From assembly GCF_964031045.1 (NCBI RefSeq), contig NZ_OZ034994.1:124001-188000 (forward strand): a stretch of DNA of 64,000 nucleotides. Reading direction: 5' to 3'. The position numbers and the translations under genes were made by a program. Under the pieces are notes generated by a model. It was not told where the DNA came from. It saw nothing but the letters and a program-made list of their open reading frames with translations, and did no database searches. Positions 7,157 to 51,397 of this stretch are shown piece after piece. The DNA is from Spiroplasma endosymbiont of Aspidapion aeneum. Lineage in GTDB: Bacteria > Bacillota_I > Bacilli_A > Mycoplasmatales > Mycoplasmataceae. The first letter of the stretch is position 1; every line of letters begins with the position of its first letter.

Positions 7157-8938
7157 TTACTTCTTATTTAGTATAACTGGTATGATAAGAGGATTTATCC
7201 TTTTATGTTTAAAAATAAAGGTTGATAATGAACTCCAAATATTTTTTTTGATAGCGGCAAATGTTGGCTTTGGCATAGATAAAACATTATTAACGGCCGC
7301 TATAACAATTTGTATTGAATCTGCTATCAACTTTGTATTATCTTTAGCATAAAAACATCCTCTAGTTATTATTCTTGGTGCTCCTCATAGTTTATTTTCT
7401 TGTGAATCAATCGATACAATAACTCCTATTAAACCCTTTTTGCTTAATATTGTTCTTTCCTTCATAATGTTTCCAGCTTTTTTTGTAAGATCTTTACCAT
7501 CGATATAAACAGCGTCTGCATCAACTCTCTCGTTAATGCTTGCTTCTCCGTTTTGGATATTTATTTGATCTCCGTTGGAAACAATAAATACATTGTTCGG
7601 TTTTACATTTACTTTAACAGCTGTTTCACCGTGGGTTTTTAACATTCTATATTCACCATGCATAGGCATAAAAAATTTTGGTTTTAGTAAAGAAAATAAT
7701 AACTTTTGTTCTTCCTGGCTTGCGTGACCTGAGGTATGAACTTTTTTATCTGTGCTATTATCATAAACAACTGCACCTCTTTTTGTTAATTTATTGATAA
7801 CCGATTCTACACTTGCTCTATTTCCCGGTATTGGACTAGCTGACATAATAATTGTATCACCTTGTGATAAAAATACATTTTGGTGTTCATTTCTACTTAT
7901 TCTTGTAAGAGCTGCATTTGGTTCTCCCTGGGCCCCAGTACAAATAAATAATAGTTGATTTTGCGGAAACAAACTAATCTCTGACGGCTTAATAAACATT
8001 TTATCATCTAACTTAAAGTCACCCAGTTGACGAGATATTTTAATTAATCTTTCAAGAGCTCTCCCAAAAACTACAATTTTTTTTGAATATTTCTTAGCCA
8101 ATAACATAATGTGTTGAATCCTATGAGCGTTACTTGCAAATGTTGCTATAAATATTCTCCCTGATGTTTTTAAGAAAATAGCTTCTATATTTGAAATAAT
8201 TGATTGTTCACCAACAGTATACCCCTCAACCTCAGCATTGGTAGAATCAGACATTAATAACTCAACACCATCATTACCAATTCTTGCAAGTCTTTGAACA
8301 TTGGCTTTATTACCCAATGGTGTTCAATCAAACTTAAAATCTCCGGTTGAAAATATTGATCCATTAGGAGTATCAACTAAAATACCAAAAGCATCAGGAA
8401 TTGAATGATTCAGTGCCGCAAATGTTACTGAGAAATGTTTTGTAGAATATACATCATTTTCTTTATATTCTCTTACAGTGGTTTTATTTTGCAATCTAAA
8501 TTCTTTAATACGGTCAATTATTAAAGCTGCTGCAAATCTTGGTGCATATATTACAGGAATTGTAACTTGTTGTAAAAGATATGGTATTCCACCAATATGG
8601 TCCTCATGTCCATGCGTTATGAATAGTGCTTTTACTTTCTTGTTATTTTCCACTAAATAATTAAAACTTGGTATTATTGCGCTCACTCCAAGCTCTGATG
8701 AATCTGGAAACTTTATACCAGAGTCTATCATTATTAGTTCATCGTCATACTCAATGCAATATGTATTTTTACCCACTTCTTCTAAGCCTCCAAGCGCAAA
8801 CACTTTTGTAGGAAATGGTGCTTTTTTATATTTTTTCTTTGGAGGTTCTAAATTATCTTCTAATTTAACAACTTCAATTCTTTGAACCAATGATAAATTC
8901 TTGGGTGTGCTCTCAATTAATATTTCTTTTTCTTCCAT
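7157..8938 (-). CDS. rnjA: Ribonuclease J (catalytically complete paralogue)
   Basis: A 593-residue metallo-beta-lactamase/beta-CASP nuclease with 5'-3' exo- and endonuclease activity in mRNA decay and rRNA maturation. The zinc motif THGHEDH is intact at residues 108-114. Also present are the STGDFKFDW segment, SDSTNAE, the beta-CASP SGHASQEE and PMHGEYRM, all diagnostic for RNase J. TGA codons at 8321-8323 and 7382-7384 are Trp; the second adds a 75-residue C-terminal tail that a standard-code caller would cut off. The first 45 residues are a charged extension. A second RNase J gene at 42238 lacks the catalytic histidines, so this copy probably supplies the activity. Start is the ATG after GAGGAAAAAT on the minus strand. 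Confidence 0.95.
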
Positions 8939-9059: not shown

Positions 9060-9674
9060 TTATATTAAAAATCAATCGTGTTCCATTTTAAACGGTTCTT
9101 CTTTATTAATATGATCATAATATAGCGTTGCATTAATATGGTCAAGTTCATGTTGAAAGACAATTGCCTCATACCCTCGTAGTGTTTCAAAAATATGTTC
9201 ATTTTTCAATTGGTCTCAGTACTCAACTTCTATTTTAAAATTTCTTGGAACTATTCCCTTTTGATCATTGTCAACACTTAGGCACCCCTCTCCCACTTTG
9301 ATCGCGCAAATCTGTACACTTTTAGATATTATTTTTGCATTTACAGCGGCTATCTCTTTTAAGGGTTTTTCTTCATGATTATCAATTCTTATATAAAATA
9401 AATTCTTATTTACTCCAATTTGAGGTGCAGCAAGACCAACAGCCGGTCTTAAATAGTCATTATTATTTTCTTCAATATTTTCGTTTTCATCTTGAGAGTA
9501 TTTTACAAAGTCAATTAATTTGTTCATACAAATAATTTCATCATCGTTAAGAATTTCTACATTCATAACATTTCTAGACTGTTTTCTAATCACTTCTTTG
9601 TTGGTGTCTTTAAATAGTCATGAGTTAGATGGTTTCTCCAGCTGTTTAAAATAATATGGTTTATTAAATTTCAT
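9060..9674 (-). CDS. def: Peptide deformylase
   Basis: A 204-residue metalloenzyme that removes the N-formyl group from nascent proteins. All three family motifs are seen: GLAAPQIG (motif 1), EGCLSV (motif 2, metal Cys) and QHELDHI (motif 3, HExxH). TGA codons near both ends (SNSWLF, VEYWDQL, HDWFLI) encode Trp, so the gene is much longer than the standard-code frame. It is transcribed toward rnjA with a gap of about 120 bases and is divergent from rsmD. Confidence 0.95.
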
Positions 9675-21507: not shown

Positions 21508-23226
21508 TTAATTATCTTCCCCACTTTTAATATATTTTCCAATTTCATCGTATAATCCTGAATAATAAATATCATCTGGGTCAATATATTTTGAGTAAAT
21601 AACAGATTTTGCCAATGATGTAATTGAGCTATCCTGACAAATTAAATATTGAATATCATTTAATATTGAATTTTTTATTGTAGAATCCATTGATGTTACA
21701 TCATTAGAATGGAGTTCTGTGTTTATGTCATAATTTCATACATCATTGTATCCATTGCTATTTGATGCTGTTGGACCTAAATTTAGTGCAACTGAGTCAT
21801 CGTTGCTCCCTGTAAGTTTATAGTCCTGTAACAATTGAATAGTATATATAGGTAATGCAAGCACAATTTCATGATAGTTATTATCTGACCCATTTGGGGT
21901 ATATCAGTAATAAGGGTTATATTTTACAATTCCACCGCGAGAATTATAATTTTCGATATTTGTCTCATACTTTTCATTAGCTATTGGGCTTGTTCCAATA
22001 GCTGTTGTTCCATTATATATTGTCATCCCCTTATAACCTTGAAGTCCCATATATGGGTCATAAGATAGTGAATCCGGGTCTATTTCGATTTTCTTTTTAT
22101 CTTTATCATTAATAGCATTGATGATATCTTGTATTGATCCTTTATCATTAAGAGTACCATCGTCATTAATTATATTATTATTTTTTAATTCTGTTAATCG
22201 TTTATTAACCTCTTCATCTCATTGTGCTTTATATTTAATCGTTCAAACTAATTTAACATTAGTAGTTAATTTAGAAGTTTTAGAAGTTTTTCATGATTGT
22301 GCCATGTTAAATAACGGTGAAGCACTATTAATAAAAGGTTGATATGAGTTATTAACTTTTCTTATGTTGTACATGGTTGAATCACCATAAGCTAAAGTAA
22401 GGGCGTTTTCCCAAGCACTTGCTTTAATAGAGTTATTAAAATAATCTTGAAATCTTAATCTAACAGCTGTTTTTGATGTTATTTGTCCCGCGGTATCATT
22501 TGGAACAATTTTATTAACACCTTTTAATTTTTCCTTCTCATTTGAAACGAGATAAAATTTATATTCATCTTTTGACTTAAATTCTGCAGTAAGCTCTTCC
22601 AACGTTGGTAAATTAGTTTCAGTATTACTTGTATCACCATTTTCATGAAAAAAACTCCATTTTTTTAGAGCACTATTACTGCCAGTTTTTTTATAATAAA
22701 TTGAATAGTAATTGTTATTATCAAATTTTAAATCAATTTTTCCCCCAGAGGTATTATTTACATCTTCTTTTGTATGCATATTTAGGGTGTATAAATCTGC
22801 AATTTTTGTATAATCTAATCTATTATCAGATGTTATTGATGATGTATATTCTGTAAATAATTTGTCTTCTAGTACAGTATCTAATTTGTTTTGCCAAATT
22901 GATGAGTTAAAGCTTTTGACATTACTATACTTAGACAATCCTAAATCTTTGTTAATTGAGTTAGTTGATTCATAAGCGTATTGAAGACTTGATGCCTCAT
23001 TTATCATACTTACCAATTGTGCCTCAACTCCAGATTTTGCCATATCGCCAAAGTCAAATCAAGCTTCATCATAATCAGGGCCCAAAATCTTTGCAATAAT
23101 AGATTTTATTAAAGTTTTATTATATTGAATAGAATCATCATCTATCCTTGCATTACAAGAAACTACAGTAGCCGCCAATGATGAACCTATTGTAAAAGCT
23201 CCCAATATACTTAATAATTTTTTCAT
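21508..23226 (-). CDS. Large surface lipoprotein (572 aa)
   Basis: A 572-residue predicted lipoprotein. The signal peptide MKKLLSILGAFTIGSSLAAT ends in the lipobox VVSC with the lipidated cysteine at residue 24, and the mature part starts NARIDDDS. The rest is polar, Asn/Ser/Thr/Lys-rich with scattered aromatic residues, typical of Spiroplasma and Mycoplasma surface lipoproteins. Multiple TGA codons are Trp; the reading frame is otherwise open from end to end. No enzymatic motif is seen. It starts 22 bases after the stop of the next lipoprotein gene upstream, so the two are one operon. A role at the host interface or in substrate capture is a guess. Confidence 0.85.
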
Positions 23227-23248
23227 TCTTTATTTTCTCTTTCTATTA

Positions 23249-25534
23249 TTAATTATTTTTTGTTGGCATTCACCAGATAGAACCAACTATTGGTGGAAGC
23301 TCACTATCTTTAAATGAATCTTGATTTAATACACCTTTTGGGTAGGCGTCATCTGTTTTTTCATTTAGCGTCTTTTTTCATGTGTTATATGCTTTTGTAA
23401 AACTTTGAGAAGAATTAGAGGCAATAACACTATCAATACTATCTAATGCATTAGCATATCAATCTCCAAGATTTTTTGATAATTCCTTTGTTTTAGTAGA
23501 TTTATCTTCAGCAGAGAAAACAATAAACTTACCAATAAAGTCCGCATTAGAATAAGTTGTTTTAGTTGTTGAGTCTACAATTATATTTTTAAAGTAGTCA
23601 ATTATATAGGTTGTTCATTCGTATTCACCTGTTGTAGATGGTTTATCAGTTTGATTTGCTCATGTTTTCACAGTTTTCATAATATCGAATTTTGTAGCAG
23701 AACCGGCTGTAGAAGATAATAATGAATTATTCAATAATCATTTTAAATATTGGTTAGAAATACTGCCATTTAGTAGGTTGTAAGTGCTTGTTTTATCATC
23801 TGGGTTAATTTTATTAACCTGAATATTTGTAACTTTTTCTAAATCGTTCATATCTGAAAACTTTTTAAATGCTTGCAACTCCTTTAAAGTGTCTGTATCA
23901 ATTTTTTCCTTCGTGGTATCGATATATTTTGATTTCTTCTCAGATTTGTCACTAGCAATAACTGAAGCTAGTAATTGGTCATAGCCATCAATGTGATATA
24001 TAATTAGACCATTAGATGTAATAATGGCAATATATCCTGGTGCACCCTTAATTGATGCATACATATTACCATCCTTACTACGATCTATTTTCATAAGAAC
24101 TTTGCTATACAATTCATCAGATGCAGATTGTGCTTTTAGACCATCATCCACTCCACTCGAGCTTAAATCAATTTCTTGATTATTAGAAGATGTTGTTTCA
24201 TTATGATTTTTTTTAAACACATAATCATATATAGCGCTTCTAACGTCTTGTTCATAGTCAGCAGAATTTGACAATGTTAATAATGTTGAATTAATAGTTG
24301 CTGTTGCATCTGTATATTTTTTTGATATATCGGCAGAATTTGACATAAGAGTTTTTCAATTTTTATCTACATCTTCATTAGATTTTTCCGCTTCATCTTT
24401 ATTCATCACTTTTGTCTTTGGTGTAACAAATGCGTCACTTAAGAATTTATTAATCTCTTTAGCTTCAATATCATTTAGTCCGGAAAAACTATCCTTAGAT
24501 ATGCCTTTATCAAATGAAGCATTAGTTGCAAATGGGAATTTAATAAAACTTGTTGCAAGAGGTGCTTTTGTTTCATATCATTTTTCTGCAAAGTATTTTT
24601 GTGTATTAGACAAATAACCGGTTCTATATATAGAGTCTGATGAAGTAAACTGACTTACATCAGATGGCACGGCACTTATAATTTGATCTATCTTTATACT
24701 ATTGTCATCACTATTAATAAACTTTGCCTTAATATTTTCAGCTGTAACATCGGTAGAACTTTCATTAACTCATTTATCTGGGCCTTCTAAATATGAATAT
24801 TGTGAATTTCATATTTGAGTAGCAGCTTGTTTGTTGTCACTAACTCAGGAATCTTGATTTGTTGCAATTGCAAAACTTTGTAGTTTTGTTCTTACTTCAT
24901 CTTTTTCAACTCAAGTAACACCAAATTGATCAGTATTTAACAAGAATTTTTGTAGAGTTGATGATGCTGAATAATCAGCGGATGTTAGCATTAAGCTTGC
25001 CTTATATTTTTTTTCTAAAAATCCAACGTCAGCATTTTTTGATTTAGATTGATAAAGAGGGAATTTTCCAGCTAAATAATCTCTTCATTTTCCGCTTCAT
25101 CTTCATCCATAATCAGATTTATATGTTGCTCTTTCTCTCTCAATTTGTGAATCAGCTGAGCTATTGATATTTGAAAAAGCTTGTTGCATACTTTTTATTA
25201 ATGTTGAACTATAATATGGAGAATCTTCATTATTATAGAGTTTAGATAAAGAACCTCCATCCTTACTTCCAGATAAGAATGAAATGTCCAATAAATTTGT
25301 AAAGTCATTGACAAATGTTTGGCGACTAGCTGAATTAGACTCACTTACCAGTTTATACAAAACATCAGATGCTGTAATTGTTGATATTCCGTTCTCGCCA
25401 ATTTGTTCAAGAAAGTTTACTAATATAGAATCTCCATCTGAACTTGTCTGTTCATATTTATTACATGATACAGTAATTGTTGCGCTAGTACTAATTAATG
25501 AAAGGGAACTTAGCAATGCAATTAATTTTTTCAC
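23249..25534 (-). CDS. Large surface lipoprotein (761 aa)
   Basis: A 761-residue predicted lipoprotein, first gene of a two-gene operon. Signal peptide MKKLIALLSSLSLISTSAT leads to a TVSC lipobox with cysteine 24. The mature chain is hydrophilic with WxxY-type aromatic clusters (RWSGKWRDYLAGKF near residue 150) and ends PIVGSIWWMPTKNN. At least ten TGA Trp codons interrupt it under the standard code. Signal peptide and lipobox resemble those of the next gene, but I see no convincing alignment of the mature chains by eye. No known domain recognised. Promoter presumably lies within 25535-25795. Confidence 0.85.
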
Positions 25535-34555: not shown

Positions 34556-35854
34556 ATGAAATTCACAGAACTAGACTTAAATGACAATATAATACAGTCA
34601 TTAAATAAAAATAACTTTTTTAATCCAACAGAAATACAAAAACAAGCTATTCCAGCATTCTTAAGAGGGGACAATATATTTGGCCTTTCATCAACAGGAA
34701 CAGGAAAAACCGCTTCTTTTGTTTTACCAATAATTGAAAGATTAAACTTAGAACTTGATAAAATACAAGCAATTATAATTACTCCAACAAGGGAGTTGGC
34801 TTTACAAATTATTGATGAAATTAGAAAATTTTCAACAAATATCAAAAAACTGAAAGTAACTCCAGTTATTGGTGGAGCTAACCTTTCAGAACAACAAAGA
34901 CGCTTAAGAAACACTCATATTATTGTTGGTACCCCAGGAAGAATACGTGACCATATTGAAAGAAAAAATATTAGATTTGGTTATGTTAAAACTATTATTT
35001 TGGATGAAGCTGATGAAATGCTAAAAATGGGTTTTCAAGGAGAACTTAATGCAGTTTTTGATAATTTAGAACAAAGCGTGCAAGTAGGGCTATTCTCAGC
35101 AACATCTACCCCAAAAGTTTTATCAATAGCGGAAAGATATATGCAAAAATATGAACTAATTAAGATTGATAATCAAATACAAGTGAACAATAACATTGAT
35201 AATTCATTTATATTTACAAAAGGTGTAAGTAAAGAAGAATTAATTATAGAAGTTTTTAAAAAACACAATCCAAAAAAGGTAATCATATTTACAAATACAA
35301 GAGCAAATACTGATAGGATTCAAAGAAACCTAAGACAACTAAAGATTGATGCGTTAGTTATTAATGGTGATAAAAAACAATCAGATAGATCTAGGTCTAT
35401 TAGAATGTTTAAATCAGGTGAAAAACATGTTTTAGTTGCAACTGATGTTGCTGCCCGTGGCCTTGATGTTAATGGAATTGATTATGTTATAAACTATGAT
35501 ATATCTATGGAAAATGAACACTTTGTCCATAGAATTGGTAGAACTGGAAGAAATAATGAAAAAGGTAGTTCAATTTCTTTTGTTCAAAATAGAAGCACAC
35601 TTGACCAATTAAAAGAAATACAAAAAAAATATAATATATCAATAGTTGAAACAAAGCTAAATCATTACGATATGGAAGCAAAAGCTGAACTGAGATCGGA
35701 AAGAAATTTTGATAATAAATGAAAATCAAGAAGTAATAATTTTTATGACAAAGGCGGATCTAACTTTAATAGAAAAAAATCATCTGGAGGAAGAAAGTCA
35801 TCTTATAATGGGAAGTCCTATTCTTCAAGAGAAAAATCATCTAATAAATGATAG
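34556..35854 (+). CDS. DEAD-box RNA helicase
   Basis: A 432-residue ATP-dependent RNA helicase of the CshA/DeaD type. Motifs in order: Q motif PTEIQKQAIP, motif I STGTGKT, PTRELALQ, GTPGRI, DEADEML (motif II), SAT (III), IIFTNTRAN (IV), DVAARGLDV (V) and HRIGRTGR (VI). After the core comes a short tail rich in Ser, Gly, Arg and Lys (about 390-432), read through a TGA and ending in NKW. The tail likely binds RNA without sequence specificity. It carries its own terminator and is flanked by mobile DNA, but its codon use looks ordinary. Confidence 0.95.
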
Positions 35855-37520: not shown

Positions 37521-37569
37521 ATATACATAAATGTAGAAATTAATGTTTTTTATAGTTTATAATTTAATT

Positions 37570-38463
37570 ATGAAGAAGATATCGAAGAAATTATGTAAAA
37601 ATATCTTTTTGGCAAGTTTCCCAATTGTACTTGGTGGATCATTATTAATACCTGGGATGGGTATTGACTCATTAAGATTTATTAATTCGGTTAAAAAAGA
37701 AATAAATATTATTATTCCAGAAGGCAAATTTATAATTAACCCCAATAGTCCATTATATGAATTTGTTTTAGATAACACCATAAGCAAAGCTTATGTTAAT
37801 GATTTATTGTCTGCATCAGATTGATCTAATGCCAACGAAGCCGGAAGTAAAAAAAATCGAGATGCATACATAAAATATGCGAACGAATGATATCATTCAA
37901 AATGAGATTCAGAAATTAAAAATAAGAAAGAAATTGATTTGCACGATGTGTCTTTTGACATGATTGATTTTGATGTTGTAGCTGCAAAAAAATTCTTTAA
38001 TTCTGCATATGTTCAATCTGGTTTTGAATGAACATTTTCAAAAAACGGTGTTGTTGATTTTTTTAATTGAAAAAAGTTACATGAAGTTTATAAAGATGCT
38101 AGCAATAAACAAAAAATATTAAATCAAGCTGATTATGATCAATTTGTTCAATATCAGAACAATATTGTTGATGGGGGTAATTTAGCATACTCAATCGGAG
38201 GTTACATTTCAAACTCTAAAGCTTGATTATTGAATATTCAAAAAAATGCTATTAAAAATGCTATTTCAATGGGTGTCTTGGAGGATAAAACACTTAATGA
38301 AGATGATGTTAAATGAAACGTTAAACCAACCGATTTTAGAAACCCTAATTATATAACTTGTATATATATATGATTTATTGGCACTACAATTTTATTTCTA
38401 TCGCCATTTTGAACTAGTGCCTGATGTTATTATTGGTATTATAAAGAGAAGGGAAAAAAATAA
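37570..38463 (+). CDS. Unknown two-span membrane protein, partner of GDSL lipoprotein
   Basis: A 297-residue protein not assigned to a family. A basic start MKKISKKLCK is followed by a hydrophobic segment (about 14-33, a signal anchor), a large polar domain rich in Asn, Lys and aromatic residues (about 40-250) and a second hydrophobic segment near the C-terminus (CIYIWFIGTTILFLSPFW), so the middle should be outside the cell. About a dozen TGA Trp codons are needed. The ATG at 37570 is chosen over 37543 because it gives the signal-like start. Its stop TAA overlaps the ATG of the GDSL lipoprotein by one base, strongly suggesting a functional pair. It starts about 75 bases after the IS element. 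Confidence 0.8.
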
Positions 38464-42237: not shown

Positions 42238-43962
42238 ATGGCTAATGTAAAAATTATTCCTCTAGGAGGACAAGATGAAAGGGGAAAAAACTCTTTTATA
42301 CTTTGTGTAGATGAGGACCTATATGTATTTGATATGGGACTTAAATTGCCTGAATCTTCAATACTTGGAGTTGATGTAATTATTTCAAATTATGATTTTT
42401 TATACAAAAACGCTGATAAAATAAAGGGTATTTTTATCTCGAATGGAAGTACATATAACGCTGGTGGGTTGCAATATTTTCTGAGAAAAGTGAGCGCACC
42501 TATATATTGTAACGAGTTTACAGAAATTATCCTTAGGCACAAGAATATTAAAATTAGATTAGAGCACCAAAATTCTAATATAAATATAATCAAGGATGGC
42601 GACATTGTAGAATTTGCTAATTTAAAAATTGACGTGTTTAAATCAACAGCAAGTTTTCCAAATTCCTTAAATTATGCAATTTATACTCCTGAAGGCTTAG
42701 TTGTGTATTTGAGTGACTTTATATATGATGGGGAGGAAAAGGATTTCTTTTCACCTAATTTTTCTCACATTCAAAAAATTGCGAGCGATGGGGTAAGTTT
42801 ACTTTTGATAGATTCTGAGTATGCATCAAGACAAGGGTTTACATCTCCAAATCATAAACTAGATAAGTATCTTCCAAATATTATTAGAGAGAAAAAAAGA
42901 AGAGCACTATTTGCAATTTTTGAAGAGGATATATTTAACTTATATGCAATTGTTAAAGAGGCAATAGCGACTAATAAAAAAATTTGTCTATACGGAAACT
43001 TATTAAATCAAATTTCTGATATTGTTATTGAAAAATCTGGTTTAGATAAAAACGCATTTATTTCACCTGCAGAATATAGAGAATCTGATAATGCAACTTT
43101 AATAATAGCTGCATCAGGTGATCTTTTATATGCTAAATTAACAAAAATAGCTGTAGGAAATGATGAATTTATTAAATTAAAGGAAAGTGACATCGTTATT
43201 CTAGCGACACCACCAGCTCCCGGTGTTGAAAGAAGACATGCAGATACTCTTGATGAATTATCAAGAACAAGTGCTAAAATCATTTCCTTATCTGATCGTA
43301 ATTTATGATCAATGAGAGCAAGTTATGAAGATGTTAAACTTGCTATAAGTATGATATCTCCTAAAAAAGTTATTCCAATCAAAGGATTATATAAGGATTT
43401 TGTTGCAACAAAAAGAGCAGCTATTGAATGTGGTCTAACAGATTATGATATTCTTATTCTTGAAAATGGGGATGCACTTACATTTAAAAAAGGACCAGAG
43501 TTGGGGATATTAAAAGAAACACTAAAAATTGATGATATATTCGTAGATGGTGTTGGTATTGGAGATTTAAGCGATACAATACTATATGAAAGAAAAATGC
43601 TTGGTACCGATGGCGTTGTTATAATTGGTGTTAACGTTGATTATAATACTAAGCTGCCAGTATCGCTTGTTGATACACAAATGCGAGGAATTACTAGTAT
43701 TAATGATGATGGAATATTGATTAATTTAATACAAGAAATTTTATTAGAATCTCTTGCAAAATATGCGGCAGCATATAAAGAGTCAAAAGAGTACAATCTT
43801 AATTTTATTAAAAAAGATATTTTATCAAAAATAAAAGGATTATTAAAAAAAGAAATTAGAAAGCAACCAATTGTTTTGTTAATTGTAAACGAACTTAGAT
43901 CACCAAATATTACATCTAGAATAAGTAAGCAAACAGCTGTTAATATTGTTGATGATAAATAA
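42238..43962 (+). CDS. RNase J-like paralogue without catalytic metal ligands
   Basis: A 574-residue homologue of rnjA over its full length (same start IIPLGGQDERGKNSF, same order of domains, LPESSILGVDVIIS, KKVIPIKG, C-terminal domain). The metal motif HGHEDH is replaced by NGSTYN (residues 69-74). Other ligands have also gone: HSIPD reads ASFPN, STGDFKFD reads LSDFIYD, SGHAS reads SMRAS and PMHGEY reads PIKGLY. It should not be a nuclease by the known mechanism. In Firmicutes RNase J1 and J2 form a complex in which J2 contributes little activity; this would be an extreme version of J2. One TGA (LWSMRAS) is Trp. Start follows GAAAGGAAAT. Confidence 0.92.
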
Positions 43963-44244: not shown

Positions 44245-47200
44245 ATGGGCAATATTGATATAGATATAAACGATATTAATAAAAGTTTAAAAAATGATAC
44301 TCGAACAATTGCTCTTGAAATACAAAAAACCAAAAAAAAACCAAATAGTAATTTCTTTATTATATTCGGAATTGTTATGTTTTTTTTAACAATCGTTAGT
44401 ATTTCTAGAATTACAATCGTCGGTCAAGCTTTAGACGATTTTTTGTTTTCTTTACCATTTGGATGATTAAAATACTTTATATATTTAATTTTGATAATAC
44501 TTAATATTTCAATATTTTTTGGTGTAAAATTTTATTTTAAAAAAAGATTTATTGCTATGATTTTTTCTGTTTTTGTAGTATTTTGCTGAAATATAACATC
44601 TATTCTAATTATTGTAGCATGAGGAACAAAGAACAAGGATTTTGTTATAGGTAGTGCCTATTCAAGTGAGAGTTTTAATTATATTATTAATAGTTATTGT
44701 AATTATTGGAAGAACCATTCTCTATGAGATAATTATAGTGGAAAATGATGAATAACAAGGTTTAATACATATTCTAATGCATATGCAGGTGGAGGTATCA
44801 TTGGAGCGTTTTGTTCTGGAATTGCATGTTATTCTTCTATTTTTGGAAATCTTTTTTTCTCACTTTTCTTTTTATTTATTGTATTGTGCTGGATTTTAAC
44901 TGGTGATGCATTTTTTCTACTTAAAAAGAAAAAATATCGTCGTGGAAGAGCTTTGAGAATTTTATCTTTAACTAAAGATAAAAAAAATAACAAAAAAAAT
45001 AACAAAAAAAACAGAATATTAAATTTTGTAAATATTTATGGTAATAACGATGGCGCAAAAGCAGAGGTTTATCAATCTCGGATGGATTATGACTTAACAA
45101 TAGAAATGCCTAGACATTTATTTAGAGAGAAGGAGAAATATTTTGATGAAGAACATACACCAGAAATGTATGCTAATGGTGAAAATATATCTAATATTCG
45201 TCAAAAAGTAGATGTAAACAGCGAAATTTATGAATCACCATTTTTTAAATATGGTGACCGCGGTTATGCTAATATTAATTCGGATATTGATATAAATATT
45301 AATAACCCCAATGTAAACTTAAGAAATCGTCAAAACCAGGGTTTTATTAATTTTGATGATAGTAGAGTTTTTGCACAAGAAGATAACTTTATAAAAAAAT
45401 CAAAAGAGTCAGAAATTCAGAATGAAAATGCAAATTTTCATAATATACCAGAATTAAATCAAATCAATTTTAACAAAAATAATAAAAAACAATTTTATGT
45501 GCCAAGAAGACAAACCAATTCAGATTTTTCACATCATTCAAATAATGAATCAGAAACCATAAGTTATGATATTCTCAAAAAAAGGGATGAATTAAGTCGC
45601 CAAGCAGAGCTTAAACCATTTGGAAATAAATCACATCCGGATAAAAATACCATAACTCAAGTAACACTTGATAGTTACGAGGAAAGAGAAGGTGATTTAT
45701 TTATTAATACAAGTTCTTCTGTTGAAGAGTTTGTTAAGACTAATCGCGGTGATTTAGATGATGAATATATAGATATTAGAGATGTTCAAAAAAAATATTT
45801 TAAAGAAGATAATTCTAAAAAATTAAGTGTTCAAAAAAAATATGTAATAGCTACTAATTATTCATTACCACAAAATTCTATTTTAAGGAATACAATTGTA
45901 GATAATTCTACACTTGAGTCTGCAAAAATTTATGCAAGACGCCAAGCGGAATCTATTAACACTTTGTTTATAAAATCTAAAACTGATGCTAAGATTACAA
46001 ATATTCTCATTGGTCCTAGTGTTGTAAAGCTTGAGGTTTCTGTTGGAGAAACTGGAAGAGTAAAAGATGTTCTTAAATTGGAGAATGACATTAAATACTC
46101 TTTAGCAACAAATAATGTAATTATTCAGGCTCCGGTGGAGGGAAAAGAGGCCGTCGGAATAGAATTTCCATCTAATGTAATTTTGCCAGTTACCTTTAAA
46201 GAGGCAATGGAAAAAATTCCATCAAATAAAAGCTTTGTTAAATTAACTTTTCCAATTGGAAAGGGTGTTGATAACAAATGAGTTTTTGCACAATTAGAAC
46301 AAACACCTCATATTCTAATTGCAGGTTCAACCGGAAGTGGTAAATCTGTTATGGTCAATTCTATGATTTGCGCTTTTCTAATGCATGCAAAACCTCACGA
46401 AGTTAAATTTTTAATGATAGACCCTAAAAGAGTAGAGTTGGCATATTATGAAAATATTCCACATCTTTTAACACCTGTTATTAGTGATATGTCATTAGCT
46501 GCAAATGCACTTAGTTCAGCTGTTGATGAAATGGAGAGAAGATATTCATTGTTTAATGAAAAAAATGTTAAGCACATTGAGCAGTATAATAGTGTTACTT
46601 CTGAAAGGACAAAAAAACTACCATACATTGTTATTGTGGTTGATGAGCTAGCAGACCTTATGATGTCTGGGGCAAAAAAAGAGGTTGAATCTTCAATTCA
46701 GAGACTAACACAAATGGCGAGAGCTTGTGGTATGCATTTAATAATTGCAACACAAAGACCATCGGTTGATGTTATTACTGGAATAATTAAGTCCAATATA
46801 CCTTCAAGGATCTCATTTTCAGTTTCTTCTTCTGTAGATTCAAGAACAATACTTGATCGTACCGGGGGTGAATCGCTAAATGGTAAAGGGGATATGCTTT
46901 ATGATATTAATGGAATTTATGGATTTAGTAGAGCGCAAGGGTGTTATATAACAGATGATGAGATTAAAAGTATTGTTGATCATACAAAGAATCAGGCAAG
47001 CCCTGTTTATGATGAAAGTTTTTTAAGTCCTCCGAAAGGAAATTCTAGTTTAGGTAATAAACATTCATCAACTGATTATTCAAAGGACCCATTATTTAAA
47101 GAGGTATTAAATTATGTTATCAATCAAGAAGCAACATCTACTTCAGATATTCAGAGAAGATTCAAAATAGGCTATAATAAAGCGGCGTCTTTTATAGATA

Positions 47201-47274
47201 TATTTTATGATGATGGTCTTGTGGGAGAAATTGGATCAGGAGCAAATCAAAAAAGAAAAGTGTTAGTGAAATAA
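44245..47274 (+). CDS. ftsK: DNA translocase FtsK/SpoIIIE
   Basis: A 1009-residue membrane-anchored translocase that moves chromosome ends through the division site. N-terminal part (about 1-250) has four hydrophobic spans. A long polar linker rich in Asn, Asp and Lys follows (about 250-540). The motor starts with TNYSLPQNSIL; Walker A is AGSTGSGKS and Walker B IVVDELADLMM, with IATQRPSVDVITGIIKSNIPSRI typical of FtsK. The C-terminal gamma domain (EVLNYVINQEATSTSDIQRRFKIGYNKAA) reads polar DNA sequences. Many TGA Trp codons fragment it under the standard code. Linker length is poorly conserved in the family. Confidence 0.96.
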
Positions 47275-47540: not shown

Positions 47541-48608
47541 ATGTTAAATATATTTGACTTTACCAATGAAATGCTAAAAGAGTATTTAATTAAAAATGAT
47601 TTTAAACCTTTTGCAGCAGATCAAATTTTTGATTGAGTGTATAAGAAATGAGAATTAGATTTCAATAATATGTTAAATTTAAGCAAGAAATTAAGAGAAC
47701 ATTTATCTAATAATTTTGAAGTTCAGATCTTAAGTACATTAAAAAGTGAAGTATCTATTGACAAAACAATTAAGAACCTAAATCTACTAACTGATAAAAA
47801 AACAATAGAAACAGTTTTAATGCAACAAGAATATGGAAGATCTATATGTGTGACAACCCAGGTTGGTTGTAAAATGAGTTGCACATTTTGTGCATCAGGT
47901 TTAATAAAAACTGAGAGAAATCTAACAACAGGAGAAATAGTTTCGCAAGTTTATGCAATGAATTTAGATTTGAGAAAAAAATTTGCCCAAAATCCAATTG
48001 ATGAAAATAAATCTGTTAGTCACATTGTAATTATGGGTATTGGAGAACCATTTGATAATTTTGAGAACGTAATAAACTTTATTAAAATTGTGAATGATCC
48101 GAAAGCTTTGGATATTGGAATTCGCCATATTACAGTTTCAACTTGTGGAATTGTTCCAAAAATATTTGAGTTTGCCAACCTTAATATGCAAGTAAACTTA
48201 GCAATATCTCTACACGCGCCAAATAATTACATACGAAATAAACTTATGCCAATTAATAAGGTTTATCCAATTGAAAAACTTATAGAAGCAATTAACTATT
48301 ATATTGATAAAACAAATCGCAGAGTGACGATTGAATATATATTGATAGAAGGAATTAATGATTCTATAGACAATGCTATTGAGTTATCAAATATCATTAA
48401 AGGTATAAATTGTTATGTAAATCTCATCCCATATAATATGGTATTGGAAAATAGTTATAAAAAATCAAGAAATATCTTAGAATTTTATAACACCTTAAAA
48501 AGTAAAAAAATCAACGTTGTGATCAGAAAAGAATATGGTTCTGATATCAATGCTGCATGTGGTCAGCTAAGAGCGAAACAAGAAGGAGTATTAGTTGATG
48601 AAATTTAG
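47541..48608 (+). CDS. rlmN: Dual-specificity 23S rRNA/tRNA adenine-2 methyltransferase RlmN
   Basis: A 355-residue radical-SAM enzyme that makes m2A2503 in 23S rRNA and m2A37 in some tRNAs. The radical-SAM cluster motif is CKMSCTFC, preceded by RSICVTTQVG. Other signatures: MGIGEPFDNFENV, VSTCGIVP with the methyl-carrier region, SLHAPNNYIRNKLMPIN and the final DINAACGQLR with the catalytic Cys. Three TGA Trp codons in the first 40 residues hide its N-terminus under the standard code. It overlaps prpC by 11 bases. Confidence 0.96.
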
Positions 48609-49359
48609 TTTTACAAAGATCACAGATATTGGAAATTATCGAAAACAAAACCAAGACAATTTAGAGTTTTATACAAATAAAAATGATGATGCTTTGGCGA
48701 TAGTTTGTGATGGTATGGGTGGACATGCAAAGGGCGAAATTGCTTCAAAAATAGCTGTTGAAAATTTTGGAAAAATATTTAAAAAATCATCATTTACTGG
48801 ATTGACAAAAAATGAAATTAACAGATGATTAAGAGCGACAATAAGCGAAGTCCTCAATGATATGGTTGATTACGCCAATTTACACCCACAAACAAAAGAT
48901 ATGGGTACAACCCTAACTGCTGTTTTGTTTACTGGTGGTTTTGCTTATGTGGTAAATATAGGTGATTCTAGGACATATAAATTAGTTGAAGATCGATTAT
49001 ATCAAGTAACCCAAGATCAAAATCTAATGAATTCAACAACCCCAGATGAAAAGGAAGATATTAAAATGTCTGGTTTGTACGGTTATACAAATGATGTTAC
49101 TTTTTGAAAAGTATTAACGTCTGCTCTTGGACCAAATAAAACATTAAAAATAGATACATATTTTATTGACCAGCCATATGGTTTGTATATGCTAACCACT
49201 GATGGTGTTCACGATTATATAGATGATAAGATAGCATTGGTCACATTAAAAAATGATACAATTAAATTGAAAGAAAAAGCAAAAATGTTGGTAGAAGATG
49301 CAAAGGATAACGGTTCCACAGATAACCTTTCTATTCTAATGGTCAATGTTACTAATTAA
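48598..49359 (+). CDS. prpC: PP2C-type Ser/Thr protein phosphatase
   Basis: A 253-residue metal-dependent phosphatase. Motifs: TDIGNYRKQNQDN, IVCDGMGGHAKGE, MGTTLTAVLF, VVNIGDSRTYK, LTTDGVHDYID and STDNLSILMV, matching PrpC/Stp1 of Firmicutes. It removes phosphates placed by the kinase encoded next. ATG at 48598 preferred (AAGGAGTATTAG upstream); it lies inside the rlmN end. TGA codons in NRWLRAT and TFWKVL are Trp. Confidence 0.95.
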
Positions 49360-49382
49360 AATTAAAACATTTGGGGAAAAAA

Positions 49383-50507
49383 ATGGAAGATGTAAAACAA
49401 AATGATAAAACTAAAAAACCTATTATTACTAATACACAAGATGAATTGTTACCTGGAACATTAATTTTTGATGGTAAATATAGAATCTTGGGAAAAATCG
49501 GTGATGGTGGTATGGCCACAGTTTACAAGGCTGTAAGAAATATTGACAATGAAATCGTTGCAATAAAATTGAATAAAGCGAATTTTAGAACAGAGAGAGA
49601 GTATGAAAGTTTTGTTTCTAATTTTAGAAACGAAGTTAACAACATTGCATCTTTAAACAATCTTTCAAAATACGTTATTAAATTGTATGATTGGGATGTT
49701 AATAAAAATTCAATGTGACTTATTGTTCTTGAATATGTTGGTGGTGGAACACTAAATGATTTACTAAAGGGTTTAAGTGTATTCTCATTAAAAGAAATGC
49801 AATATTATTTTGGCCAAATAATTGATGCATTAATCGTGGCACATAAAAATGGTATTATTCATAGAGATATAAAACCTGAGAATATTTTTCTAACAGAAAT
49901 TGGAGAAGTTCGTCTAGGGGATTTTGGTATATCATTTACTAGTGAAAATTCAAAGGAAGCAAAAAAGAAAATAGGGACTCCAAAATTTATGCCCCCAGAA
50001 TTGATATCAAATGCAAGTGCCTCAAAGCAAAGTGATATTTATTCATTAGGTGTTGTTATGTATATTGCAGCAACTGGTACAGCTCCATTTGTAACTTCAA
50101 AAACTAGTGAGAAGGGTCGTGAAGATCTTTTTATAAAACATGTATCGCAATCTCCTATTAGACCTTCGAGTGTTAATCCTGATATACCGAATAAATTATC
50201 AAATTTAATTCTAAAAATGATAGAAAAATCTCCTAATGATAGACCAGCAAGCATGGAATATGTATATCGCGAGTTAATGTCGCCAGATGTAAACCTGACT
50301 GCTAAATTATATCATTACAAAGGAAGAAGAAAATTCTTTTTAGACCAGACAGAACCAAAACAAAAATGAAAAAGTCAGAGAGCAATTGGTTATAGCGAAT
50401 CTAGGCCATACTATTTAAGATTTAGATTTATAATTTTATGATTTGGCATATTTTTTCTTACATTTTCATTTTTAATTTTAGCATTAGTTTTTGCGGTTAT
50501 TAAATAA
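49383..50507 (+). CDS. prkC: PrkC-like serine/threonine kinase without PASTA domains
   Basis: A 374-residue eukaryotic-type kinase. Glycine loop GKIGDGGMATVYKA, catalytic lysine VAIKLNK, HRDIKPENI, DFGISF, then GTPKFMPPEL and SDIYSLGVVMY: all invariant residues are present, so it should be active. One hydrophobic span near the C-terminus (FIILWFGIFFLTFSFLILALVFAVI) anchors it; only one residue or so follows, so the extracellular PASTA repeats of typical PrkC are absent, in line with the lack of a cell wall. ATG at 49383 has GGGGA upstream; TTG at 49371 is the alternative. Stop overlaps the rsgA start. Confidence 0.95.
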
Positions 50508-51397
50508 TGATCGAAAATTGTTTAGTAATAAAAAAAATCGGAAAGCATATATATGCATGAAAAAATAATACTATGATTAAGTGCATTGAAAAAGGAAAAG
50601 ATAAGTTTAAAAATATTAGAATAGAATTGGGAGACTACTTAGATGTCAAAAAAATAGATAACTCTGAATATTTTCTCATCGAAGGAATAAGAGATCGAAG
50701 AAATTTATTTTACAGACCAAGAATTGCAAATGTAGACCAAGTATTTATTATTGTTGCTTTAAAACAGCCAAATTTAAACACATTAATCCTTAATCGATAT
50801 ATATTATTATGTAAAACTATGGATGTAATATTAATTTTGTGTTTCACAAAGACAGATTTAGATGATAATAAAGAAAAAATATCTATTGCTAAATGTTATG
50901 AAAAGCTAGGTTATAAGTGTTTATTTATAAGTAATAAGAATGATAAATTTTTTTCAACTGATTTTAATAATATGTTCAAAAATAAAATAACTTTATTTTC
51001 TGGACAATCAGGAAGTGGGAAATCAACATTAATAAATAGAATAGGGAATAATCTAAATATTAGAACACAAGATATATCTAAATATTTAGATAGCGGAAAG
51101 CATACAACAACAAATAGTGAGCTCTATTATTTAAATAATGGATACATAGCAGATACTCCTGGTTTTTCAAAATTTCAATATGATAAGATTTTTCCTATTG
51201 ATATTGCAAGATCATTAAAAATATTTTTAAATTTGTATTGTAAGTTTAATGATTGTTTACATATCAATAACACAATAGAGTGTGGAGTTATAAAGTTTTT
51301 TAATGATAACATAGATTTATATTTTTATAAAAAAGATTATGATAGAATCATATCAGAATTAATTTTACAAACTAAAAACAGGGGGGATTATGGATAA
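50507..51397 (+). CDS. rsgA: Ribosome small-subunit GTPase RsgA
   Basis: A 296-residue circularly permuted GTPase that aids late 30S assembly. Order of motifs is G4 (FTKTDL), then G1 (GQSGSGKST), then G3 (DTPGFS), the hallmark permutation. The N-terminal OB fold is about 1-75. The C-terminal zinc site uses C, C, H, C in YCKFNDCLHINNTIECG. The kinase gene upstream overlaps by one base; this coupling (prpC-prkC-rsgA-rpe-thiN) is the standard Firmicutes order. Confidence 0.95.

Follow-up and report, generated by a model that had tools for sequence, protein, structure and literature searches.

RNase J2 of a Spiroplasma endosymbiont has lost six of seven metal ligands, in line with near-complete ligand loss across its order

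We found that RNase J2 (RnjB) has been stripped of nearly all of its metal ligands in every sampled genome of the order Mycoplasmatales, while the gene is retained at full length and, in close pairs of relatives, under strong purifying selection. The protein that led to this observation is encoded in a 64,000-nucleotide stretch of a contig of the Spiroplasma endosymbiont of Aspidapion aeneum (hereafter the window); it is a vertical orthologue of RNase J2, is predicted to adopt the RNase J fold and has one of seven metal ligands left. We consider it probable that this J2 is a pseudonuclease and the non-catalytic member of an RNase J1-J2 complex, in which J1 would supply the active sites.

The J2 gene and its lost ligands

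The rnjB-type gene occupies 42238..43962 on the plus strand of the window, has an AGGA-type ribosome site immediately 5' and encodes 574 amino acids under genetic code 4 (TGA = Trp), with a single TGA codon at W357. Both RNase J frames of the window, J2 and J1, are open under table 4 and broken under table 11. Pfam recognises a beta-CASP domain (PF22505, residues 220-341, 42895..43260, 4.7e-10) and an RNase J C-terminal domain (PF17770, residues 448-553, 43579..43896, 2.9e-12), while the metallo-beta-lactamase (MBL) part no longer scores, though its fold is predicted. The family model TIGR00649 (MG423, RNase J family beta-CASP ribonuclease) matches J2 over its full length with 370.6 bits (1.2e-110), short of the curated 400-bit cut-off, which the J1 of the window passes with 548.7. 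A frameshift, a sequencing artefact and a pseudogene were ruled out by the open frame under code 4 and by the full length of the gene in 60/60 genomes.

Metal ligands were assigned from the metal sites of Staphylococcus epidermidis RNase J1, where two Mn ions are reported to be bound by H74, H76, D78, H79, H142, D164 and H390 (PMC7864078). In the alignment, the corresponding residues of the window J1 (H109, H111, D113, H114, H178, D200 and H427) are matched by N, S, Y, N, A, D and K in J2. Four ligands are lost where NGSTYN (residues 69-74, 42442..42459, plus strand like all features of this gene) stands in place of HGHEDH; the His of HSIPD is replaced by A138 (42649..42651) and the motif-C His by K382 (43381..43383). 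The only ligand kept is the bridging Asp of GDFKFD (D160, 42715..42717, equivalent to J1 D200), so that the protein, with 1/7 ligands, fails the catalytic RNase J signature of HxHxDH plus His, Asp and motif-C His. A reading of the sequence without database searches had held that every visible metal ligand was lost. The alignment confirms its change from HGHEDH to NGSTYN and three of the four further replacements that it listed (HSIPD to ASFPN, SGHAS to SMRAS and PMHGEY to PIKGLY), but the fourth, STGDFKFD to YLSDFIYD, spares the metal-bridging Asp.

The same reading had pointed to an intact copy elsewhere in the window, and this is indeed an RNase J1 (rnjA-type, 7157..8938, minus strand) of 593 amino acids, with a frame intact under code 4 and all seven ligands; we propose it as the catalytic partner of J2. 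The two proteins share 25% identity over 559 aligned columns, and the window's own genome has exactly two RNase_J_C domains.

Ligand loss across the order

An alignment with J1 and J2 sets, the check that had been suggested for the window protein, showed that the latter is not a single odd paralogue. A search of 60 genomes of the order gave a match in every one, with one J2-type frame of 549-623 amino acids per genome, and these J2s keep none (6 proteins), one (48) or two (6) of the seven ligands, the bridging Asp being retained by 50/60. All seven ligands are present in each of the 31 J1s tabulated, which come from these 60 genomes; 20 more J1s were used for dN/dS only.

A wider alignment of 194 rows, from which near-duplicate loci had been removed, extended the comparison to the class, for which scanning genome contigs with P0001 alone gave no match and an alignment-based scan supplied the J2s. 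Seven ligands were found in 61 of 62 J1s, the remaining one (L185) being a partial sequence that scores six because its end is missing. Among the 55 class J2s, four ligands were kept by 39, five by 12, six by one, three by one and two by two, in a sample biased towards J2s bearing the single pattern G[QL]DE[RKN]GKN used in the alignment scan, within which the D13 column lies. The order's J2s (n = 77, including 17 rows beyond the 60 that were assigned by record title, same-family kinship or, for L178, the tree) keep one ligand in 58 cases, none in 8, two in 8 and three in 3. According to the reading made without database searches, at least some of the catalytic motif survives in known J2 proteins; this holds for Staphylococcus, with HGHEHA (PMC3937233, PMC7864078), and for most Erysipelotrichia-like J2s, but in this order near-total loss is the rule.

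The loss is concentrated at the active site. Among 79 columns with near-invariant residues in a set of 61 J1s, the J2 of the window retains 1/7 ligands, 13/34 other active-site-motif positions and 22/38 positions elsewhere (ligands versus elsewhere, Fisher p = 0.047), and over the 60 J2s the mean retention of such columns is 0.14 for ligands, 0.35 for the other active-site-motif columns and 0.60 elsewhere.

Origin and order of the losses

Phylogenetic trees were built by a quick method from chosen subsets of 72, 59 and 27 rows, and several branches within the order are long. J2 forms a clade apart from J1 with SH-aLRT 100 in the trees of 72 and 59 rows. Inside the class J2s, the J2s of the order form a single clade (SH-aLRT 99), also when active-site columns are left out, and this clade is nested among the J2s of Erysipelotrichia-like Bacilli, which have decayed only in part, most of them keeping 4 or 5 of the 7 ligands. 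The window protein is thus the vertical orthologue of RNase J2; an independent duplication within this genome was ruled out by the trees.

The motif-C His was probably the first ligand to go, because it is missing from all 55 class and all 77 order J2s, and one change on the tree suffices to account for its loss. The J2 of Turicibacter (L138) still reads HGHEDH, while most other class J2s have HxHDD(V/I/Q) or HxHxEN. Within the order, HxH is still present in Mycoplasma todarodis (L182) and its kin, and if it was never regained it was lost at least three times, a count that is tentative because it is taken from quick trees with several long branches. Ligand loss was therefore probably stepwise and repeated, rather than one event in the window genome. 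The branch leading to the window J2 is long (0.89-0.91, versus 0.14-0.34 for the nearest family members).

Constraint and predicted fold

Among genomes in which both genes were read, and with pairs of saturated dS excluded, 24 of the 25 closest pairs gave a J2 dN/dS of 0.012-0.070 and a J1 dN/dS of at most 0.058; in the 25th pair, J2 dS was only 0.019. With no second genome of its genus in the samples, constraint in the window's own lineage is judged by comparison with the other 59 J2s: of 93 columns on which 80% or more of these agree, the window copy matches at 79. That the degenerate paralogue is kept at full length, as first noticed in the window, thus goes together with strong purifying selection on J2 in close pairs of relatives, and the combination of lost catalytic residues with a selected gene is, at the level of sequence, that of a pseudoenzyme.

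Mean pairwise identity within the order, for J2 and J1 rows drawn from different genome sets, was 0.437 and 0.529 in the N-terminal MBL part (MBL-N), 0.405 and 0.489 in beta-CASP, 0.420 and 0.485 in MBL-C, and 0.399 and 0.377 in the C-terminal domain. J2 thus matches J1 in the conservation of its C-terminal domain, the part of RNase J that controls oligomerisation. Pfam RNase_J_C and beta-CASP matches are kept in 26/26 aligned J2s.

An AlphaFold model of the window J2 (mean pLDDT 82.8, pTM 0.72) suggests that the protein most likely folds as RNase J. Its top Foldseek matches are the RNJ2-RNJ1 integrative model 9a5v, presumably of the B. subtilis proteins, and the B. subtilis J1 crystal structure 3zq4 (E 7e-53 to 3e-47). 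VIA-align placed S. epidermidis J2 at the top (Z 46.1, rmsd 2.6, 425 aligned), and further RNase J rows followed at a distance of about 1-2 in Z.

Residue changes in the cleft

Other residues are characteristic of J2. A Glu at position 331 (E331, 43228..43230) is found in 77/77 order and 55/55 class J2s and in 0/62 J1s, a J2-type signature defined in this analysis; by alignment, S. epidermidis J2 carries it as well. The J1 motif FASN, which we take to line the 5'-phosphate pocket, has its Ser and Asn invariant in 62/62 J1s. It reads FEED in the window J2 (residues 228-231, 42919..42930), both residues having become acidic, and among the 77 order J2s the Ser is replaced by Glu in 45 and Gln in 18, and the Asn by Asp in 60. 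The stretch with the phosphate-binding His, TSGHASQEE, is replaced by WSMRASYED (residues 357-365, 43306..43332), which begins with the TGA-encoded Trp. The His of SGHAS is thereby an Arg, and loss of this His is reported to impair S. epidermidis J1 (PMC7864078).

Asp160 and Lys382 occur together in 53/77 order J2s, and an Asp or Glu is paired with a Lys or Arg at these positions in 46/55 class J2s. The equivalent Asp and His of S. epidermidis J1 are described as holding the same metal (PMC7864078); judging from the alignment, Lys382 may stand in for the charge of that metal.

A proposed non-catalytic role for J2

Having lost six of its seven metal ligands and acquired acidic and bulky residues in the 5'-phosphate pocket, the window J2 would be expected neither to bind two metals nor to cleave RNA in the manner of RNase J. 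It would instead pair with the active J1, in good part through its C-terminal domain, so that the active sites of the complex would come from J1 only, while J2 might set its assembly, stability or processivity. A scaffold or regulator of J1 had already been proposed from the sequence, and a dead J2 as partner of J1 is the best-supported reading here, but the premise then given, that J2 proteins keep parts of their motif, fails for this order.

Precedents come from better-studied Bacilli. Staphylococcus RNase J2 (HGHEHA; PDB 6k6w, 8yyf-8yyk) is of the same type as the window J2 by sequence and fold, and shares with it an altered motif 2, a lost motif-C His (Gln392) and the Glu at the position of E331. 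Its non-catalytic role is known genetically in S. aureus. In S. aureus, a J2 active-site mutant is reported to have no growth phenotype while a J2 deletion is impaired, catalytically dead J1 partly replaces J2, and J2 is proposed to play a structural part in a J1+J2 complex (PMC3937233). The B. subtilis RNase J1-J2 complex (9a5v, with the J1 crystal 3zq4) likewise offers both a fold match to the window model and a J1-J2 pairing, and S. mutans J2 is reported to pull down J1 near-stoichiometrically (PMC6759994). Against the proposal, S. epidermidis J2 is described as mostly monomeric, with low J1 affinity and active with one metal (PMC7864078), activity is reported for the J2 of E. faecalis (PMC5383250) and of S. 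mutans (PMC6759994), and residual activity has been described for B. subtilis J2 (PMC7864078). S. epidermidis J2 keeps a one-Mn site together with measurable activity, whereas the window J2 keeps the Asp only; residual activity by another site is possible.

Dead paralogues beside active ones are also known among eukaryotic MBL/beta-CASP proteins, in the pairs INTS9/INTS11 and CPSF100/CPSF73. The pseudonuclease INTS9, with NYHC as its motif 2, is reported to dimerise with INTS11 via C-terminal domains (PMC7980224). This is an analogy only, since these pairs differ from that of the window in being eukaryotic, endonucleolytic and non-orthologous and in having other C-terminal domains.

Outside the order, J2 may occur without J1, because eight of ten class genomes picked for low hit counts have one RNase J each, in all eight (assemblies 81-98% complete) of J2 type, with no J1 detected. 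The single J2 keeps HGHEDH in 4 of these 8 (G141, G271, G324 and G365; loci L267, L268, L269 and L273), which are all four sampled genomes of genus g93. In the other two class genomes (G272 and G384, 98-99% complete) no RNase J was found. Where it is the only RNase J, J2 may act alone, which fits full catalytic loss only where J1 is present.

Three other explanations bear on the same evidence. The dead cleft of J2 could have become a new working site, for RNA binding without cutting, for a metabolite or for another degradosome protein, with J1 as one or none of its partners. Such a site would fit the non-random conservation, within the order, of the replacement letters (FEED/FxED, ATPPxPG and PxKGLYK), the order-only columns D231 (0.78), L384 (0.86) and A335 (0.91) among the 77 J2s, and the frequent co-occurrence of Asp160 with Lys382. 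However, conserved core residues may merely stabilise a metal-free fold, and the acidic residues at the J1-invariant pocket Ser and Asn in most order J2s speak against RNA 5'-phosphate binding there; we regard this reading as unlikely.

That J2 retains a weak or unusual nuclease activity, at a single-metal or metal-free site, seems to us improbable. For S. epidermidis J2, which has an altered motif, activity with a single metal is reported (PMC7864078), and most J2s of the order do keep the bridging Asp. Yet the metal of S. epidermidis J2 is held by H76, H78, H80, H144 and E166, of which the window J2 retains the acidic position only, and in 54/60 order J2s no more than one of the seven J1 ligands is left. 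The long branch of the window J2 could also mark a decaying relic on its way to loss from a shrinking genome, but the gene is intact and full length in all 60 genomes, its close-pair dN/dS is near that of J1, the window copy agrees at most of the conserved columns and the gene list of the minimal cell JCVI-syn3.0 includes RnjB (PMC4993169), so that we give this explanation very little credence.

The reading of J2 as a non-catalytic partner of J1 can be carried further. The order would then depend on an obligatory RNase J holoenzyme in which a live subunit is joined by a fully dead one, the bacterial equivalent of INTS11-INTS9, and which even a minimal cell retains. The erased metal centre would have been rebuilt repeatedly, by Lys382 beside Asp160 in place of metals and an acidic FEED in the phosphate pocket, to form a new site for regulation or assembly on which J1 would vitally depend. 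We offer this larger picture as speculation and think it rather doubtful.

The degenerate motif of J2 and its possible structural role are already known, and what is new here is the order-wide, complete form of this tendency. J1 and J2 are reported in all Mollicutes and both treated as endonucleases (PMC4014445). In our searches of the open-access literature we met neither a report of a lost catalytic motif in mollicute J2 nor a description of an order-wide, repeated and near-complete erasure of J2; PMC6609329 and PMC10090944 contained none of the RNase terms looked for. The role of RNase J2 is disputed between that of a weak nuclease and that of a structural partner, and an order that keeps J2 universally and yet has erased it as an enzyme provides a natural experiment for the structural model. 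It also corrects the description of mollicute J2 in PMC4014445, where the protein counts as an active endonuclease. That the minimal cell has an RnjB (MMSYN1_0257), described as unexpected in PMC4993169, becomes directly testable as well.

Gene neighbourhood

Directly downstream of J2 lies a gene for an FtsK/SpoIIIE translocase (44245..47274, plus strand). An ftsK gene follows on the same strand at 37 of 80 named J2 loci, many of which end at contig ends, and two of these matches are weak (E ~1e-9). This ftsK/spoIIIE neighbourhood is, we assume, also the gene order around B. subtilis J2. After ftsK come, consecutively on the plus strand (47541-51397), RlmN, a PP2C phosphatase, a PASTA-type Ser/Thr kinase and RsgA. 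J1 is adjoined by a peptide deformylase gene (9060..9674, minus strand). Upstream of J2, a CshA-like DEAD-box helicase (34556-35854, plus strand; NF053631, 374 bits, under its cut-off of 646) is a possible degradosome partner. Elsewhere in the window, two large neighbouring lipoproteins with plasma-type signal peptides are encoded at 21508-25534 on the minus strand, the second (761 amino acids) with 15 TGA codons, and at 37543-38463 on the plus strand a 306-amino-acid frame that contains ten TGA codons and matches nothing in Pfam adjoins a GDSL lipase-like gene.
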